A stretch of 34,777 nt of DNA. It comes from Nitrosotalea sp. (GTDB lineage: Archaea; Thermoproteota; Nitrososphaeria; Nitrososphaerales; Nitrosopumilaceae). Where the stretch lies: the NCBI GenBank assembly GCA_023252235.1, contig JAHEXH010000008.1, positions 1 through 34,777 of the forward strand, given 5' to 3'. The translations under genes were made by a program, and so were the position numbers. Each line of letters begins with the position of its first letter. The first letter of the stretch is position 1. The notes under the pieces were generated by a model that was given only the letters and a program-made list of their open reading frames with translations, made no database searches and had not been told where the DNA came from. This document shows, piece after piece, positions 11,556 through 33,352 of this stretch.

Positions 11556-13334
11556 TTATCGGTTCATGTCTAAGATCTTCAGATATCTTCTATTTTTCAC
11601 ATCTACAACACCAGTGTACAAGATTCTGATCTCAGGTAATGCAAGAAACGGTAAGAAAAGAGGTATTAGATGAGGGTTTCTGAATTTACACCCCGTTTCT
11701 ACTAGTTTAGAATCTATGCTAGAATATTCATCCAATGTTTTTTCAAAAGGTAAGGAGGATATCAGACCGGCAAGCGGTAATGAGAATTTACTTAGAATAT
11801 TACCATTTTTAGCTACTAGTATACCCCCTTGCATCTTAATCAGATTATTTGCAACAAAGGCCATGTCTTTTTCATTTGAACCTATAACCAGCATATCATT
11901 TTCATGAAAACTCTGGGTACATCCAAATGCTCCAATGTCAGCACCAAAATTTCTCAAAAACGCTACAGTCTTTTTTCCAGTGCCATATGTCCTATCAATG
12001 GCAGATACCTTCCACACATCCTTATCGTGTGATGCCATCACATTACCATCCCTTACTTGAAGTTCTTCCTGATCCATTTTTGTTATTATTTCTGTGTCAA
12101 GTCTGATAACCAATGCTTGTGCAGAATTTCCTTTGCTTCGTATAACAAAGTCTTTTTCTCCAAACTTTGTTCTTGTCTTTACAGTTCTTTTCATCCAACT
12201 TGGGATTACAGTCTTGGGTACGTCCATTACAAGACTACTATGAGCTACTGCCAATTTGCCTCCTACAAAGACCTTGCTTGGTTTGATCTTTTCCAAATCA
12301 TCAAAAACAAGAATATCTGCTAATTTGCCAGGTGCAATTGCACCACGGTCTTTGCTCATACCATAATACTCAAAGGAGTTCCTTGATGCAATTGTTATAG
12401 CGTCTATTGGGTCCATACCAATAGAGATAGCTTTTCGTATACAATGATCAATCATTCCATATTCAACAATATCCTTTGGGTTTACTCCATCTGTACAGAA
12501 CATTAGTCTATCAAGATAGGTTTTATGAGATAGGACGTTCGGTAAAATTTTATCAAGATCTCGTCTTATAGAACCTTCTCTCATCATAACCCACATTCCA
12601 AGTCTTAGTCTTTCCAAGACTTGATCATAATCAATCGGTTCATGACATGAGAAAATTCCAGAGGCTATGTAGGCATTTAGCTTTTTATCACTTGCACCAG
12701 CTGTATGACCATTTATGATACCATTATTTTTTAAAACATTAGATATGCTTTCAATAGTTTTGGGATCCCTTGTTGTAACTTTGGTCCAAGAGAACACTTC
12801 ACCTAGGCCAACTACATTTTCCATGTTTAGTCCATTGATCTCTTCTTTCTCTGTCAACGTTCTTGCATGACTAAATTTTCTATCAACAGGTAATCCTCCT
12901 GGAATTACATGGTAAACCCTGATTGGAAGACTCTGAGTCATTTTAACAAATTCCTTGAACCCTTTGTAACCGCAGACACTTACAACGTCAATTGGGTCTG
13001 AAAATAAAGTCGTAGTACCTGACAAAAGCGATTTTTTTGCAAGTTCTGATGGAAGGATGTATTGATCTATGTGTATATGAGGATCGACAAATCCTGGTGT
13101 GATGTATTTGTCTTGTAAATCAATAACACCAGTCTTCGCTCCAACGGTGTGAGATGCATCTTTTCCCACATATGCAATCCTATCTTTTTTTATTGCCACA
13201 TGGATTTGAGGTATTATTTCTCTAGAATAGACATTAACTAGCCTACAATTTTTTAAGACAAGATCCGCCTTGTTTTCACCCATGGCTACTGCATTGAGTG
13301 ATAAAATCATGGAGGCAAGTGAGCTGGCCTTCAT
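11556..13334 (-). CDS. ade: Adenine deaminase-like amidohydrolase (divergent active-site surroundings)
   Basis: This protein has the whole-length architecture of AdeC-type adenine deaminase (adenine to hypoxanthine), with 592 residues: a beta-sandwich start (ADLVLKNCRLVNVYS), a metal-dependent barrel and the C-terminal Ade domain. Metal-site residues look intact: HIH (86-88), Glu179 in GLGEV, His210 (NGH), His231 (SCHE) and Asp282 (CTDG). REGSIRRDL and RGAIAPGKLADILV are also typical. Several motifs differ from the family as I know it: HIHIES is HIHIDQ, DPHEI is DPIDV, CTDDR is CTDGV, and the late VAHDSHN is QSFHEND. The substrate may therefore not be adenine. The ATG at 13334 restores the usual N-terminal helix and has a TATA-like box 27 bases upstream. 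Confidence 0.8.
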   Translation of the reverse strand: MKASSLASMILSLNAVAMGENKADLVLKNCRLVNVYSREIIPQIHVAIKKDRIAYVGKDASHTVGAKTGVIDLQDKYITPGFVDPHIHIDQYILPSELAKKSLLSGTTTLFSDPIDVVSVCGYKGFKEFVKMTQSLPIRVYHVIPGGLPVDRKFSHARTLTEKEEINGLNMENVVGLGEVFSWTKVTTRDPKTIESISNVLKNNGIINGHTAGASDKKLNAYIASGIFSCHEPIDYDQVLERLRLGMWVMMREGSIRRDLDKILPNVLSHKTYLDRLMFCTDGVNPKDIVEYGMIDHCIRKAISIGMDPIDAITIASRNSFEYYGMSKDRGAIAPGKLADILVFDDLEKIKPSKVFVGGKLAVAHSSLVMDVPKTVIPSWMKRTVKTRTKFGEKDFVIRSKGNSAQALVIRLDTEIITKMDQEELQVRDGNVMASHDKDVWKVSAIDRTYGTGKKTVAFLRNFGADIGAFGCTQSFHENDMLVIGSNEKDMAFVANNLIKMQGGILVAKNGNILSKFSLPLAGLISSLPFEKTLDEYSSIDSKLVETGCKFRNPHLIPLFLPFLALPEIRILYTGVVDVKNRRYLKILDMNR

Positions 13335-27513: not shown

Positions 27514-28023
27514 ATGTCAGTTGAGCATGAAGATCCTTTTGTAAAAATTGCTGCATTAATTGGAGGAGATGAATATCTCAAGGTTGCACGTTCTTTGCTT
27601 AATACAGAGGATGCCACTGATGAGGAAATTGCAAGCTCAACTGGACTTAGAATCAACATAGTCAGGAAGGTCTTGTATGATCTTTTCGGTAAAGCTTTGA
27701 TAACAGGAATAAGAGTAAAGGACGAAAAGAAAGGTTGGTTTGTCTACAGATGGAGAGCAAGAAGAGACGAAGTAGATAATTTCATAGAGAATCAAAAGAA
27801 AAAGATTGTAGATAGATTACAACAGAGAGTAGATTATGAAAACTCTGCAGACTTTTATCATTGTGGAAATGAAGACTGTCAAAAACTAACCTTTGAAAAA
27901 GCTCTTGATCTTTCCTTCAAATGTCCAACTTGTGGAAAATTGGTAAATCTTTCAAAAAATGAAAAGCTCAAAAAAGCACTACAAAGCAAAATTGATCAGT
28001 TACGTGATGATCTAAAACATTAA
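27514..28023 (+). CDS. tfe: Transcription factor E (TFE alpha)
   Basis: The archaeal homologue of TFIIE-alpha. It binds RNA polymerase and helps open the promoter. The 169-residue protein has an extended winged helix (about 8-95, including TDEEIASSTGLRINIVRKVLYDLF, shortened, and GWFVYRWRARRDEV). A zinc ribbon uses Cys117, Cys122, Cys137 and Cys140 (YHCGNEDC, KCPTCG), and a charged C-terminal helix follows. The first ribbon pair has four residues between cysteines instead of two. An AGGAAGG stretch lies nine bases before the ATG, yet a TATA-like box at -27 also allows a leaderless message. The stop overlaps by four bases the end of convergent arfC. Confidence 0.94.
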   Translation: MSVEHEDPFVKIAALIGGDEYLKVARSLLNTEDATDEEIASSTGLRINIVRKVLYDLFGKALITGIRVKDEKKGWFVYRWRARRDEVDNFIENQKKKIVDRLQQRVDYENSADFYHCGNEDCQKLTFEKALDLSFKCPTCGKLVNLSKNEKLKKALQSKIDQLRDDLKH

Positions 28024-28664
28024 GAAACATAATGTAAAACTATTTCATTTTGTATTTTCTCAATCTTTTTTAATTTAAAGGAATTAGGTATTTCTCTAAA
28101 ACCATCACCTTCAACTAGAGAAATTGCAGTATTACCTCCTAGAACATATGGTGTAACAGTTATTGCAATCTCATCCACTAGTTTTTCCTTGAAAAAATAC
28201 CAGTTAGTTGTACCTCCACCTTCAACAATAATTCTCTTGACTCCCTTTTTTCCAAGAATTTTTAATAATTTCTTTAGATCGATTTTGTTCTTTCCACATC
28301 TTATTACTCCAACTCCCTTTGCAACAAATCTCTCAACTTTTCTTGGAGCATTTTCTGACACTACAAGTATTGTAGGAATTTGTTTTGCAGTTCTGATCAC
28401 TTTAGATTTAGAAGATAAACTTCCCTTTGAGTCAAGAATGACACGAATTGGGTTTTTCCCTTTCACATATCTAACAGTAAGCAGAGGATTGTCAACATTT
28501 ATCGTATTTTTTCCAACAAGTATTGCATCAACTGTCTTTCTAAGTTTATGAACTCTTACCAAATCTTTTTTGGATGAAAGATTAGATCTACCAGTACGAG
28601 TAGCTAATTTTCCATCTATACTCATGGCAGCACTAAGTATTACGTAAGGTCTAGATTTTACCAT
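28020..28664 (-). CDS. arfC: 2,5-diamino-6-ribosylaminopyrimidinone 5'-phosphate reductase
   Basis: Reduces the ribosyl side chain to ribityl with NAD(P)H in archaeal and fungal riboflavin synthesis. In that route reduction precedes deamination. The 214-residue protein is a stand-alone RibD C-terminal-type reductase: SAAMSIDGKLATRTG with SNLSS, ILVGKNTINVDNPLLTVR, NPIRVILDS, and IIVEGGGTTNWYFFKEKLVDEI (shortened), all matching the family. There is no deaminase domain, so deamination needs another enzyme. The ATG at 28664 overlaps the end of the amidohydrolase gene by 14 bases. It is the last gene of the riboflavin operon. Confidence 0.92.
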   Translation of the reverse strand: MVKSRPYVILSAAMSIDGKLATRTGRSNLSSKKDLVRVHKLRKTVDAILVGKNTINVDNPLLTVRYVKGKNPIRVILDSKGSLSSKSKVIRTAKQIPTILVVSENAPRKVERFVAKGVGVIRCGKNKIDLKKLLKILGKKGVKRIIVEGGGTTNWYFFKEKLVDEIAITVTPYVLGGNTAISLVEGDGFREIPNSFKLKKIEKIQNEIVLHYVS

Positions 28665-29841
28665 GAACTAGTTTCCCTTCATACATTACTGCTTTTATCG
28701 TATTTTCGGAAGCACGTTGAACGATTGAGGCATGAGGATTATGCATCGGTTCTAAATCGATGGAATGTTTTTCAAGGAATATGCAGTCTGCTATTTTGTT
28801 ATTTTGAATAACTCCAACTTTATCGCCCAAAAGATTTGAAGCGTTTGTAGTAGCCATCTGAAGTATATTTTTTGGCATTAATCTTTTTTTCTTCATACCC
28901 ATTGAGACTTTCCAGAGATAATCCATTTCCCTGAACATATCAGGTGAGTTTATCATAACATTATCAGTACCAATTGCTACATTACAACCAGCATCAAGCA
29001 TTAGATTGACATCAGGAATACCTTCTGCAAGCGAACCATTTGCTCTTGGACATATGACAATGTTTACTTTGTTTTTAGTTGCCATTACAAGATCTTTTTT
29101 TGAGGCATAAGTCATGTGAACTAAAAAATTCGGTTTTGAAAGCAGGGCTCTTTGAGTCTCAGTTTTTCCATACATCTTTTGAGATATTTTGTTACTTTCT
29201 TCAGTCTCGGCTGAATGTATAGCACGAATCTTTTTTGTTGTTGCAAAATATCTTAATACAGAATTACTAAACTCATTTGGACCACTAATTCCAAGCCCAT
29301 TACAATTAGTTAGAATATTTTTTAGATCCAGTTTACCTGATTCTGGAATAGGAATATTGTTCTTGATAGATTTTGAGTCTTGATAGTATTCAATTCGTCC
29401 CAAGATGATAGGTCTTATTGGAATATTGGATGTAGTATTTTTTAATAGGTTAATTCCTTCAATGCCACCCTCTCGAAAATCAATGAACGATGTGATACCT
29501 TTTCTAATCATTGAAATACATGAATTTTTAATAAAACTAGCAAGATGTAATTTATCAGAATTTTTAAGAATTTTTTGTTTGAATCCGCTAACTGGATGTA
29601 TCTTTTCTTCAACATCAGAGTCAATACCTACATCTTTTGCTATAGAATCACCAATATGGGTATGTGAGTTAATTAGTCCAGGCATCATTAGTAGACCTTC
29701 ACAGTCAAGTATTGATTCATCGTCATGTGGCGAGAGTTTTGTCCCTATCTGTTCAATATATTTTCCAGAAATTCGCACATTGGTATTTTGAATATAATCT
29801 AGTTCTTTACCATAAAGAAGACTGATATTTTTTATCAGCAT
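28651..29841 (-). CDS. Amidohydrolase-superfamily deaminase-like enzyme inside the riboflavin operon
   Basis: A 396-residue metal-dependent hydrolase of the ATZ/TRZ, guanine and SAH deaminase branch. The N-terminal and C-terminal strands form the beta-sandwich (ISGKYIEQIG, KAVMYEGKLV). The barrel holds every expected residue: PGLINSHTH with His60 and His62, His209 with Glu212 in HSAE (the HxxE acid of deaminases), His242 in VHMTYAS, and Asp293 in GTDN. It should therefore be active. It overlaps arfA by seven bases and arfC by 14. Archaeal riboflavin synthesis needs a deformylase (ArfB, usually creatininase-like) and a pyrimidine deaminase that has not been assigned, to my knowledge. This gene is placed to supply one of them, and its motifs favour deamination. 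A purine-salvage role is the alternative. Confidence 0.85.
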   Translation of the reverse strand: MLIKNISLLYGKELDYIQNTNVRISGKYIEQIGTKLSPHDDESILDCEGLLMMPGLINSHTHIGDSIAKDVGIDSDVEEKIHPVSGFKQKILKNSDKLHLASFIKNSCISMIRKGITSFIDFREGGIEGINLLKNTTSNIPIRPIILGRIEYYQDSKSIKNNIPIPESGKLDLKNILTNCNGLGISGPNEFSNSVLRYFATTKKIRAIHSAETEESNKISQKMYGKTETQRALLSKPNFLVHMTYASKKDLVMATKNKVNIVICPRANGSLAEGIPDVNLMLDAGCNVAIGTDNVMINSPDMFREMDYLWKVSMGMKKKRLMPKNILQMATTNASNLLGDKVGVIQNNKIADCIFLEKHSIDLEPMHNPHASIVQRASENTIKAVMYEGKLVHGKI

Positions 29842-30587
29842 GTTATCTCAAGAATTCGTGTATCTTTTTTGCCCGAATCTCTAAGTTCACGGATCTTATC
29901 TAACGATTGAGTAGCTAACTTGGCTGCATCTCTTCCGGTCTTTGCTGTTCCGATTCCACAGTTAAAAGAAATATCATATTTTTGTTTTACAATTTCAAGA
30001 AATTTTGTTATTTCTTCCTTATTGACATCTGAACTCATTATCATAAAATTATCTCCTCCCATAAAAAATGCAAGTGAATTTCTTTGCAGAAAGAATTCGG
30101 ACATTTCTGAATATAATTTGATAATAAGCAATGATACTTCATAAGGTGATTTTTTTGCAGAGACTGAAGTAGAACCATCCACATCCATGTGTATAATCTG
30201 AACTAAATCTTCATCTTTTCTTAGTGGCAATCCAAAAATATTATGATCCTTGCTTAACACTGTATTAGAACGTCGCGCCTTGTCAGCATTTGAACTTGCT
30301 TCAAATGGAGTGTTACCTTGTCCTATAGACATAGACAAGCCCAATTCAAAGGACTTTACTAGTTGCTTTTGAATTTCTATATGATCATAAATTGAAAGAC
30401 CATTAGTTATTACAAAGATTTCATCAAATCGGTTAGGAAATGCAATACAACTTCTTTCTGAAAACAAATTTTGTATCTCTTTGTACAATGATGCTTGAAG
30501 CATCTGAAGTCTATGTTCTCGATCACTGCCCAAGGTTAGAGTCCATGGTCCATATCCAGTGATCTTAATTATGGTTAGTTGAATCAT
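29835..30587 (-). CDS. arfA: GTP cyclohydrolase III
   Basis: The first enzyme of archaeal riboflavin synthesis. It opens GTP to the formylated 2-amino-5-formylamino-6-ribosylaminopyrimidinone phosphate and releases pyrophosphate. The 250 residues from the ATG at 30587 hold two related nucleotide-cyclase-like halves. The first contains IIKITGYGPWTLTLG, LQASLYKEIQNLF and RFDEIFVITNG. The second contains QIIHMDVDGST, FFMGGDNFMIM, the metal-binding GGDN motif, and CGIGTAKTGRDAAKLA. A TTG at 30593 would add two residues; the ATG gives the family start MIQLTII. It overlaps the ribH end by 23 bases. The product still carries a formyl group, so a deformylase is needed next. Confidence 0.93.
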   Translation of the reverse strand: MIQLTIIKITGYGPWTLTLGSDREHRLQMLQASLYKEIQNLFSERSCIAFPNRFDEIFVITNGLSIYDHIEIQKQLVKSFELGLSMSIGQGNTPFEASSNADKARRSNTVLSKDHNIFGLPLRKDEDLVQIIHMDVDGSTSVSAKKSPYEVSLLIIKLYSEMSEFFLQRNSLAFFMGGDNFMIMSSDVNKEEITKFLEIVKQKYDISFNCGIGTAKTGRDAAKLATQSLDKIRELRDSGKKDTRILEITC

Positions 30588-30999
30588 TTTCAATTTTCTC
30601 TAGCTCTTCAGATAATTTCTTTGCGGCCTCTACAGCTCTCTCAGCAACTGGTCGTATTCGCTGATGTGCCTGTCTATCACTCATTCCAGGTCCTGTTATT
30701 CCTAATGTTACTGGTTTTTGATATTTTATTGAAAGTTCTGCTAATGCTTTTGCAGTAACGGATGAAATGAGTTCATCATGTTTGGTTTGTCCTTTGATTA
30801 CTGCACCTAGAGTTATTACAGCATCAACATCTTTTTTTTGTAATAATTTGTCAATTAAAAGAGGCATGTCAAACACACCTGGTACTTTACAGGTGTACTT
30901 TACATTAATCTTCAATACTTTTGCCTTTTCGGTAGCTAGTTCCATCATTTTTAATGTCACTTCACTATTAAATTCAGCAACAACAATCGCAATATTCAA
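30565..30999 (-). CDS. ribH: 6,7-dimethyl-8-ribityllumazine synthase
   Basis: Condenses 5-amino-6-ribitylaminouracil with 3,4-dihydroxybutanone 4-phosphate. The 144 residues show the family order: IAIVVAEFN at the start, VPGVFDMPL for substrate binding, GAVIKGQTKHDELI with the conserved His74, and the C-terminal helix QRIRPVAERAVEAA. KHDE in place of the bacterial HFEY-like sequence is usual in archaeal RibH. The ATG at 30999 is two bases after the ribB stop, so the genes are tightly coupled. The 3' end overlaps arfA. Confidence 0.94.
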   Translation of the reverse strand: MNIAIVVAEFNSEVTLKMMELATEKAKVLKINVKYTCKVPGVFDMPLLIDKLLQKKDVDAVITLGAVIKGQTKHDELISSVTAKALAELSIKYQKPVTLGITGPGMSDRQAHQRIRPVAERAVEAAKKLSEELEKIENDSTNHN

Positions 31000-31001
31000 A
31001 A

Positions 31002-31682
31002 CTAATGCTCCTTGGTAAATTTAACAAGATTAGTTCCATCAAAATATGGTATAGCACAATCCTTAGCATATTGTTTAGCTTTTTCTGTTGATAATGCAGT
31101 ATACGTTTTGGAATCTAACATTTCACAGATTGCTGTAACTGGTGTGAGTCCTGCAAGTTTCATTAAATAAATTGACATCTCAGTATGTCCAAGTCTATTT
31201 GATAATAACCCTTCTGAAGCAATAAGCATAGGAACGTGACCAGGCGTCTTGAAGGTAGAATTGAAAACTTCTTTCTTTTCATTATTTTCACTGTTGTATA
31301 ATCGTGCCATTTCAGAAATTGTTAACGCTCTATCTTTATCAGTTATTCCAGTGAATGTATTTTTATGATTAATTGAAATTGAAAAAGAAGGCCTATCTCC
31401 ATATGGGGCAGTACCTATAATCATCTTCTTTGAATCAGAATCAAATTTTTGAGAGCTAAAAAGAATTTCATGCATATAGTCAAGACCCAAACTAGTTGCA
31501 AATTCATGATTTACTGACATGCAAATTAGCCCTCCGGCATCATTACGCATACGTGCTATATGCTCCGGAGTTACAAATTCTGCTGCAATTACCATATCTA
31601 CTTCATTTTCTCGTTTGCCTCCATCATGAAGTAAAATAAAATCACCTCGTCTAAGTGATGAAATAGCTTCTTCTAAAGACAT
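31002..31682 (-). CDS. ribB: 3,4-dihydroxy-2-butanone 4-phosphate synthase
   Basis: Makes the four-carbon unit of riboflavin from ribulose 5-phosphate. The 226-residue single-domain protein has the acidic loop DGGKRENEVDMVIAAE, MRNDAGGLICMSV, then TPGHVPMLIAS and LGHTEMSIYLMKLAG with the catalytic His/Glu. It is not fused to a GTP cyclohydrolase II domain, as expected where ArfA is used. It is the first gene of the operon ribB-ribH-arfA-amidohydrolase-arfC. The ATG at 31682 has a TATA-like box 28 bases upstream and a cluster of TGGTA half-sites further up. Confidence 0.94.
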   Translation of the reverse strand: MSLEEAISSLRRGDFILLHDGGKRENEVDMVIAAEFVTPEHIARMRNDAGGLICMSVNHEFATSLGLDYMHEILFSSQKFDSDSKKMIIGTAPYGDRPSFSISINHKNTFTGITDKDRALTISEMARLYNSENNEKKEVFNSTFKTPGHVPMLIASEGLLSNRLGHTEMSIYLMKLAGLTPVTAICEMLDSKTYTALSTEKAKQYAKDCAIPYFDGTNLVKFTKEH

Positions 31683-31755: not shown

Positions 31756-32346
31756 CTAATCATCAGATAAAATATATTTTCCCAGTATGTCAGTTTCGAT
31801 ATTAACTTTATCGCCAACTTTTTTGTAATTCAGATTAGTTATCTTCATAGTATGTGGTATTATTGAAACGGAAAATTGATCCTTGAGTACATCTACAACT
31901 GTCAGACTAATACCATCAACTGTAACAGATCCCTTTTTGATAATGTATTTCGATAATTCTTTTGGAACTTTTGTCCATATTTGTATTTGATTTGGTTGCT
32001 TTTCCATCTTGGAAATTATACCAACACCGTCAACATGTCCTAATACAAAGTGTCCCTCAAGTCGTTCACCAACTTTGAGACTTCTTTCAATATTGACTTT
32101 ATCACCACTTTCTAAGGAACCAAGATTAGTTTTTTTTATTGTTTCACCAATCATTTCAAATTCAGCAACATCTTTTGAAATATTTATTGCAGTAAGACAT
32201 ACACCATTTATTGCAACACTATCTCCGATTTTAAGTCCTTTTGCAATTTTACCTAGTTTTATTTTCATTTTTGCAGCACTACGGTTGCTTGTTTTTTTAT
32301 CAAATCTGACAATATTGCCCAAGCCTTCAATTATTCCAGTAAACAT
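31756..32346 (-). CDS. ribE: Riboflavin synthase, bacterial-type (two lumazine-binding repeats)
   Basis: Dismutates two 6,7-dimethyl-8-ribityllumazine molecules to riboflavin. From the ATG at 32346 the 196 residues begin MFTGIIEGLG, the canonical start, and contain two homologous barrels (about 1-90 and 95-190). Marks are GDSVAINGVCLTAI in the first, and GHFVLGHVDGVG with GSVTVDGISLTVV in the second. Many archaea instead use RibC, which is related to lumazine synthase, so the bacterial trimeric type suggests past transfer. A longer frame from 32391 adds 15 residues absent from the family. It is separated from ribB by a 73-base promoter gap but shares its strand and pathway. Confidence 0.93.
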   Translation of the reverse strand: MFTGIIEGLGNIVRFDKKTSNRSAAKMKIKLGKIAKGLKIGDSVAINGVCLTAINISKDVAEFEMIGETIKKTNLGSLESGDKVNIERSLKVGERLEGHFVLGHVDGVGIISKMEKQPNQIQIWTKVPKELSKYIIKKGSVTVDGISLTVVDVLKDQFSVSIIPHTMKITNLNYKKVGDKVNIETDILGKYILSDD

Positions 32347-32479
32347 GATTGATAAGTTCTTATTTGTATCTAGATGATTTATGTTTATCAAATAATAGAC
32401 AGATCTACAATTTAGTCATATATCTGCTGCATCATATTTTATCTTCAATAGAAAATTATGAAGGAATTTTAGATGAGAA

Positions 32480-33352
32480 TTATGAATTTATTTTATTATT
32501 TTTTACTGAATTCAACAGAGTTACAGCCCTTTTGTAATGTACTTCGTCAATCATTTTCCCGTCAACTGTTGTAGCTCCCCTTTTCTTTTTCTTGGCTAAA
32601 TCATATGCATTAATGACTTTTTTTGCCCATTCTATTTCCGAGGGAGTTGGATAGAATACTTTGTGAACAATATCGATTTGGTTTGGATGAATAATGCTTT
32701 TACCCACATAGCCCAAGTTTTTGGCAGTAAGGGAATCCTGCTCTAATCCTACAACGTCATCAATATCTTGCCAGATTGCATCAATTGCATATTTTCCTGC
32801 AGCTCTTGCATCTACTGGAATTTTTGTTCTTGAATATATGGACCCTTCTGAGTTTTTAGTATATTCCACACCTAGATCATTTAATAAATCAAACACCCCA
32901 AAGACTAATGCTGATACTCTTTTACTAGATGAAGCTATAGCATAAGAATTTACAACTCCCATCGTAGATTCAATCGATGCAATGATTTCAATTGGTTGTA
33001 GTTTACGTTTCTTTTCTAGTCCAATCATAGTCTTTTCAATTTTTTTTATATCATTTGCCGTGTCTACTTTTGGAATCACAACACCATCGACACCTTTTTG
33101 AATAATTTCTTTCAAGTCATCAGGTATCAAACCAGATGCCGGAGAATTTGTTCTCACATAAATTTCAGAATGATATTCAGATCTATTTTTTAGTGCATTT
33201 TTTATTAGATTTCTTGCTGATTTTTTTTCTTCAAAGGGAACAGAATCTTCCAGATCAAAGCAGATAATGTCTGCACGTAGAGACTTGGATTTTTCTAAAA
33301 AGCGGCTATTATTACCTGGAACAAACAAGAGACTACGAAGGAGCCTTGCCAT
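32480..33352 (-). CDS. CitE-like lyase (HpcH/HpaI aldolase family)
   Basis: A 290-residue TIM-barrel protein of the citrate lyase beta/malyl-CoA lyase family, which cleaves or forms CoA-linked beta-hydroxy acids. Conserved points are SLLFVPGNNSRFLEKS, CFDLEDSVPFEEK, the substrate arginine in YVRTNSP, the metal ligands Glu in ASIESTMGV and Asp in FGVFDLLNDLG, and KSIIHPNQIDIV. Without citrate lyase alpha and gamma subunits nearby it is unlikely to be part of citrate lyase. Malyl-CoA or citramalyl-CoA lyase or thioesterase activity is more plausible. The ATG at 33352 is 13 bases from the end of the MDR gene, so the two may be one transcript. Confidence 0.85.
   Translation of the reverse strand: MARLLRSLLFVPGNNSRFLEKSKSLRADIICFDLEDSVPFEEKKSARNLIKNALKNRSEYHSEIYVRTNSPASGLIPDDLKEIIQKGVDGVVIPKVDTANDIKKIEKTMIGLEKKRKLQPIEIIASIESTMGVVNSYAIASSSKRVSALVFGVFDLLNDLGVEYTKNSEGSIYSRTKIPVDARAAGKYAIDAIWQDIDDVVGLEQDSLTAKNLGYVGKSIIHPNQIDIVHKVFYPTPSEIEWAKKVINAYDLAKKKKRGATTVDGKMIDEVHYKRAVTLLNSVKNNKINS

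Follow-up and report, generated by a model that had tools for sequence, protein, structure and literature searches.

An amidohydrolase gene located inside the riboflavin operon of the archaeon Nitrosotalea sp. probably codes for the deaminase of the ArfC product, 2,5-diamino-6-ribitylamino-4(3H)-pyrimidinone 5'-phosphate. If the order of its action relative to ArfC is left aside, comparison of sequences and gene neighbourhoods makes it highly probable that the encoded protein is the deaminase of the riboflavin pathway. Such a role is strongly supported by the co-occurrence of the gene with ArfA, by its clustering with riboflavin genes, by the lack of a RibD deaminase half in the genomes that carry it, and by ten genomes in which no PF00383 match was found. 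The gene lies in a window (the whole stretch of DNA analysed) of 34,777 nucleotides. The original prediction had left two roles side by side, deamination of the ArfC product or replacement of the deformylase ArfB. The former is sustained by gene clusters, the phyletic profile, the absence of RibD/RIB2 and the HxxE motif; the latter had to be given up, since the protein coexists with ArfB.

The riboflavin operon of the window

The riboflavin genes form a run on the minus strand, in the order RibE, RibB, RibH, ArfA, amidohydrolase, ArfC:

28020..28664, minus strand: ArfC, 2,5-diamino-6-(ribosylamino)pyrimidinone 5'-phosphate reductase (TIGR01508, 212 bits, cut-off 186)
28651..29841, minus strand: amidohydrolase (COG0402-like, NF005552), candidate 2,5-diamino-6-ribitylamino-pyrimidinone 5'-phosphate deaminase (396 aa, ATG start)
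29835..30593, minus strand: ArfA, GTP cyclohydrolase III (PF05165, 181 bits; PDB 2qv6, E 3e-38)
30565..30999, minus strand: RibH, lumazine synthase (TIGR00114, 136 bits, cut-off 85)
31002..31682, minus strand: RibB, dihydroxybutanone-phosphate synthase (TIGR00506, 210 bits, cut-off 177)
31756..32391, minus strand: RibE-type riboflavin synthase (NF006767, 232 bits, cut-off 155)

ArfC of the window has no deaminase domain: the RibD model TIGR00326 matches it solely from position 138 on. The overlaps of the amidohydrolase ORF initially read from the sequence, 7 bases with arfA and 14 bases with arfC, are borne out by the coordinates. Counting the window, 28 loci of its family contain arfA, the amidohydrolase gene and arfC; with ORF starts assigned mechanically, the 7-base overlap is found in 22 of them, and the 14-base overlap likewise in 22. 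Because the same overlaps recur in this way, the arrangement of the genes is not a matter of chance.

Two other genes of the minus strand may be mentioned here. A CitE-like lyase (32480-33352; 230 bits, cut-off 443) lies upstream of the riboflavin genes, and a second protein of the amidohydrolase superfamily (11556-13334), adenine-deaminase-like, scores 385 bits on TIGR01178 (cut-off 472) and bears a PF13382 C-terminal domain. Rfam gave no match within the window.

Protein family and metal site

The amidohydrolase passes the NCBIfam model NF005552 (PRK07213; cut-off 294 bits), which carries the generic label "chlorohydrolase": it scores 335.9 bits over profile positions 2-378 of 382. Its Pfam matches at E <= 0.01 are PF01979 and PF07969 only. 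At this threshold the ORF contains no PF00383 cytidine-deaminase domain; it matches neither PF02633 in the Pfam scan nor NF033501 in the search of its own genome. The full metal site, composed of H60, H62, H209, E212, H242 and D293, was found at the positions predicted for it and is invariant in all 28 aligned relatives. The HxH, HxxE, H and D elements of the cytosine/guanine deaminase branch are likewise invariant in 61 of 61 rows of the clade delimited below. HxxE is a signature of deaminases. A single-sequence AlphaFold model of the protein has a pLDDT of 32; the distorted TIM-barrel of this branch would be the fold to expect, as profile matches to solved members of the superfamily may suggest. 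The top match among these structures is TM0936, an SAH/MTA deaminase, followed by guanine, SAH/MTA and triazine-hydrolase types.

TM0936 and the SAH/MTA/5'-deoxyadenosine deaminases (NF012037, NF005557) thus share a superfamily branch with the window protein, and the named families that come next after NF005552 are of salvage type. Both this and the nearest solved structure would suit a salvage or housecleaning deaminase, acting on guanine, SAH/5'-deoxyadenosine or oxidised purines and placed in the operon incidentally. We consider such a function decidedly improbable, as the protein scores far below the cut-offs of the respective equivalog models: 62 against 375 bits for guanine deaminase, 71 against 779 for MTA/SAH deaminase and 93 against 522 for 5'-deoxyadenosine deaminase.

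A clade separate from the deaminase paralogues

A quick tree of 59 rows, from which most near-identical members of the window's family were left out, is divided by one branch. On its one side stand 30 proteins from clustered loci, 5 from unclustered loci and 5 NF005552 proteins of euryarchaea, on the other side 19 paralogues including the DadD-like ones; the support of the branch in this quick tree is modest (SH-aLRT 80). The HxH/HxxE/H/D elements are common to the clade and the DadD-like paralogues. Paralogues of the SAH/MTA/5'-deoxyadenosine type differ from the clade in the residues that mark the latter: D65 (61 of 61 clade rows versus 0 of 19 paralogues), K88 (61/61 versus 1/19), E124 (61/61 versus 2/19), R266 (60/61 versus 0/19), N294 (61/61 versus 0/19) and R376 (58/61 versus 0/19). 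R149 is present in 57 of 61 clade rows and 0 of 19 paralogues. It is not conserved in the groups f10 and f22, and the protein of genome G071 lacks R266, P300 and R376 in the alignment. The tree, at its modest support, and these conserved residues indicate a clade distinct from the DadD-like deaminase paralogues. That the two are parted while living in the same genomes is further evidence against a salvage function of the window protein.

Co-occurrence with ArfA and ArfC

The assembly to which the window belongs is 54% complete, and relatives were therefore used for the phyletic profile. The sample comprised 200 genomes of the phylum, the window's own and 199 others at least 80% complete. Members of the clade are carried by 76 of the 199; 34 of these carriers pass the NF005552 cut-off, and the rest were joined to the clade by the tree or by the residues. 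The expected co-occurrence with arfA and arfC was found among these relatives: all 73 genomes with ArfA have a clade member, versus 3 of 126 without ArfA, and ArfC is present in 75 of the 76 carriers, all figures being plain counts over related genomes and thus not independent trials. No salvage reason is evident for a tie of 73 in 73 to ArfA. Ten genomes have an ArfC-like match and no clade member; ArfA was matched in none of the ten.

All three carriers without ArfA (G018, G097 and G103) keep the clade gene beside arfC. ArfA is present in two relatives from the group of G097, whose own completeness is 93%. In G103 (95% complete) and G018 (98%), the pair of amidohydrolase and ArfC (loci L001 and L011, respectively) occurs without any ArfA match, which suggests that another enzyme takes the first step of riboflavin synthesis in these two. 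One member of the window's family has a second GTP cyclohydrolase III-like ORF outside the riboflavin operon (G066:C9:5396-6088, 138 bits).

Several weak matches were left out of these counts: one to ArfA in G137 (19 bits, under cut-off), those to the reductase half of TIGR00326 in G112, G125, G172 and G198 (each below 50 bits), and one to ArfC by a 98-aa fragment in G092 (50 bits). When NF005552 is used alone, ArfA is found in 58 of 61 carriers, and 15 genomes with ArfA are left without a clade member. Group f10, with 14 ArfA-containing genomes and weak NF005552 matches, was considered as a counter-example and dismissed, one clade member being found in each of its genomes by the more sensitive clade profile A1. 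The f10 members carry the clade residues; in G135 the match is split into two pieces of one ORF. As the A1 profile together with the residue check resolved the 15 exceptions, the table based on NF005552 alone was replaced. Three proteins matched by A1, in G094, G050 and G112 (435-457 aa, 160-161 bits), were assigned to the paralogues: that of G094 on its position in the tree, the other two solely on length and resemblance.

Clustering with riboflavin genes

Had the gene belonged elsewhere, its orthologues should lie mostly outside riboflavin clusters, and this is not the case: 53 of the 76 carriers, from 11 of 14 family-level groups, have the gene clustered, that is, near arfA, arfC, ribH or ribB. 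In the window's family, it adjoins ArfA and ArfC in each of the 30 genomes sampled (27 loci were read; G003, G052 and G078 were judged from coordinates). The distant group f19 includes the order RibB-RibH-ArfA-amidohydrolase. The surroundings of 20 amidohydrolase paralogues served as a control; over about 6 kb on each side, with two of the loci cut by contig ends, none held ArfA, ArfC, RibH, RibB or an ArfB candidate. The gene is unclustered in 23 carriers: every one of the 14 f10 genomes, four genomes from f22, three from f12, and in addition G131 and G071. According to the coordinates, ArfA and ArfC of the 14 f10 genomes are encoded at other places; 1.5 to 6 kb were read on each side of the amidohydrolase. 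The loci L049 and L153 have ArfA, an ArfB candidate, ArfC, RibB, RibH and the amidohydrolase together; given this gene content, the deaminase and the phosphatase are the steps left over.

Absence of RibD/RIB2-type deaminases

The chemistry proposed here would equal that of the RibD deaminase domain and fungal RIB2, with an identical or closely similar substrate. These enzymes have the cytidine-deaminase fold (PF00383), in contrast to the PF01979 and PF07969 matches of the window protein; because the protein families differ, one and the same step would be served by enzymes that are not homologous. The expected absence of RIB2-type enzymes was confirmed: the RibD deaminase half (model positions 1-136) was matched at E <= 0.001 in none of the 76 carriers, versus 27 of the 123 non-carriers. 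The 27 matches are weak, at most 46 bits and none over the cut-off, and many of them may be dCMP deaminases.

Ten genomes, nine of them single contigs and 99-100% complete, combine ArfA, ArfC and the clade gene and gave no PF00383 match. PF00383 is likewise unmatched in M. jannaschii and S. acidocaldarius, both used as controls, and in the Methanococci G200, G202 and G204; the assembly of G202 comes from a single cell, measures 1.0 Mb and is possibly incomplete. In the window's family, each of the 30 sampled genomes has one PF00383 protein, and the RibD deaminase half has no match in any of these 30 members. The one PF00383 protein inspected (L210) matches ComEB, a dCMP-deaminase-like family, below the cut-off and by its sequence looks like a dCMP deaminase. 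Four genomes of the sample (G076, G088, G124 and G142) possess an ArfC-like reductase and a weak RibD-deaminase-half match and lack the clade amidohydrolase; it is possible that a cytidine-deaminase-type enzyme serves the deamination step there.

Relationship to ArfB

Archaeal ArfB, a creatininase-family formamide hydrolase, and, as far as the accessible part of PMC9478397 goes, BrbF of Sinorhizobium act in the same pathway and belong to a different protein family than the amidohydrolase. It had been noted at the outset that no creatininase-like ArfB is encoded in the window. This proved correct: at E <= 0.001, nothing in the 54% complete genome, the window included, matches the ArfB model, and Pfam or NCBIfam scans of 24 of the window's 48 ORFs revealed no creatininase. 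If the amidohydrolase substituted for ArfB, taking the formyl group off the ArfA product, this lack of a match would be explained, and the tight co-occurrence with ArfA would fit as well. A creatininase-family protein is nevertheless encoded elsewhere in 30 of 30 family members; the ArfB model, whose cut-off is 180 bits, gives it 26-57 bits, scores low enough to suit a substitution. In the same-genus genome G084, the corresponding protein (L155:6478-7188) reaches 177 bits on PF02633 and scores higher on MftE (146 bits, cut-off 172) than on ArfB (58 bits). Judged by sequence, the creatininase-family protein of the window's family is likely ArfB. In L155 (5623-7188) this candidate starts directly after an ORF with a formyltransferase domain (PF00551), and a formate/formyl link between the two neighbours is conceivable.

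Substitution of ArfB was rejected. A full-score ArfB (288-340 bits) stands beside an NF005552 protein over the cut-off in all five euryarchaeal genomes (four of them named as methanogens or Methanococci), and the creatininase-family ArfB candidate shares a cluster with the amidohydrolase and arfC in L032, L049 and L153. ArfB is thus present alongside the amidohydrolase. The three ArfA-less carriers, in which the amidohydrolase is retained beside arfC, and the deaminase signature HxxE also speak against a deformylase, and we hold this reading to be extremely improbable.

Proposed reaction

As a metal-dependent member of the cytosine/guanine/adenosine-deaminase branch, the amidohydrolase would hydrolyse the 2-amino group of the ArfC product and yield 5-amino-6-ribitylaminouracil 5'-phosphate, thus acting between ArfC and the still missing phosphatase. 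The metal would be held by H60, H62, H209 and D293, and the metal-bound water would attack C2, with H242 and E212 as presumable proton carriers. In cytosine deaminase, an active-site glutamate serves ring protonation, and by analogy E212 might protonate the ring here. The clade-specific basic residues K88, R149, R266 and R376 may hold the 5'-phosphate and the ribityl chain.

The same deaminase could also follow the bacterial order, acting before ArfC on the ribosyl compound made by ArfB, or accept both compounds; the sequence does not fix the order, and the operon holds both enzymes. We consider this unlikely, as the available part of a 2026 review (PMC13028884, citing Graupner 2002) has archaea reduce first and deaminate second. 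Deamination of the ArfC product thus is the preferred assignment. The later steps of riboflavin synthesis are described as the same in bacteria and archaea (PMC9478397 and PMC13028884, in the parts available).

Relation to earlier proposals

A 2021 survey (PMC8305020) lists HVO_2483, 34% identical to MJ0699, in a row that follows ArfC and precedes a gap for EC 3.1.3.104; it credits the prediction to Rodionova et al. 2017 (NAR) and notes "also predicted for MJ0699". In the accessible part of the survey this row names neither reaction nor family, and we take it as the deaminase because of its place after ArfC. In M. jannaschii, hmgA is mj_0705 (PMC6616113, in the part available). The gene order in the sister species Methanocaldococcus sp. 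SG1 is HMG-CoA reductase, a HisA-like protein, a 102-aa ORF overlapped by an opposite-strand ORF, DNA polymerase II small subunit, PriL, MscS and the orthologue of the window gene. The orthologue is therefore six genes from hmgA, and corresponds to MJ0699 if the 102-aa ORF is counted. It scores 559 bits on NF005552, where the window protein scores 336, and the two belong to the same family with 34% identity over 354 aligned positions. Its gene is situated away from the riboflavin genes, whereas that of the window's family is locked between arfA and arfC. The synteny in SG1 and the common family and clade point to orthology of the window protein with MJ0699.

As the SG1 orthologue maps to MJ0699, the idea of a deaminase seems to be in print already: such a role of the clade was apparently proposed in 2017 for the relatives MJ0699 and HVO_2483, as far as the accessible part of the survey tells. 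By its sequence, the window protein is a new member of this already proposed, predicted deaminase family. The initial expectation that it fills a real gap in the pathway is accordingly only partly upheld. The gap looks open in the open-licence literature, where we found no experimental proof of an archaeal riboflavin deaminase among the papers listed; the family itself had apparently been proposed in 2017 (PMC8305020, in its accessible part).

Implications

The archaeal riboflavin deaminase has been a pathway gap with a predicted gene only, and the present analysis narrows it to one clade and removes the ArfB reading. Archaea whose riboflavin synthesis begins with GTP cyclohydrolase III probably owe the deamination step to one ancient amidohydrolase clade, whose members share D65, K88, E124, R266 and N294 as a putative substrate signature and are not related to the RibD/RIB2 deaminases that bacteria, plants and fungi use. 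If this is true, the label "chlorohydrolase" of NF005552 could be corrected across archaea, and archaeal synthesis of vitamin B2 would differ at its first, second and fourth steps through the use of non-homologous enzymes.
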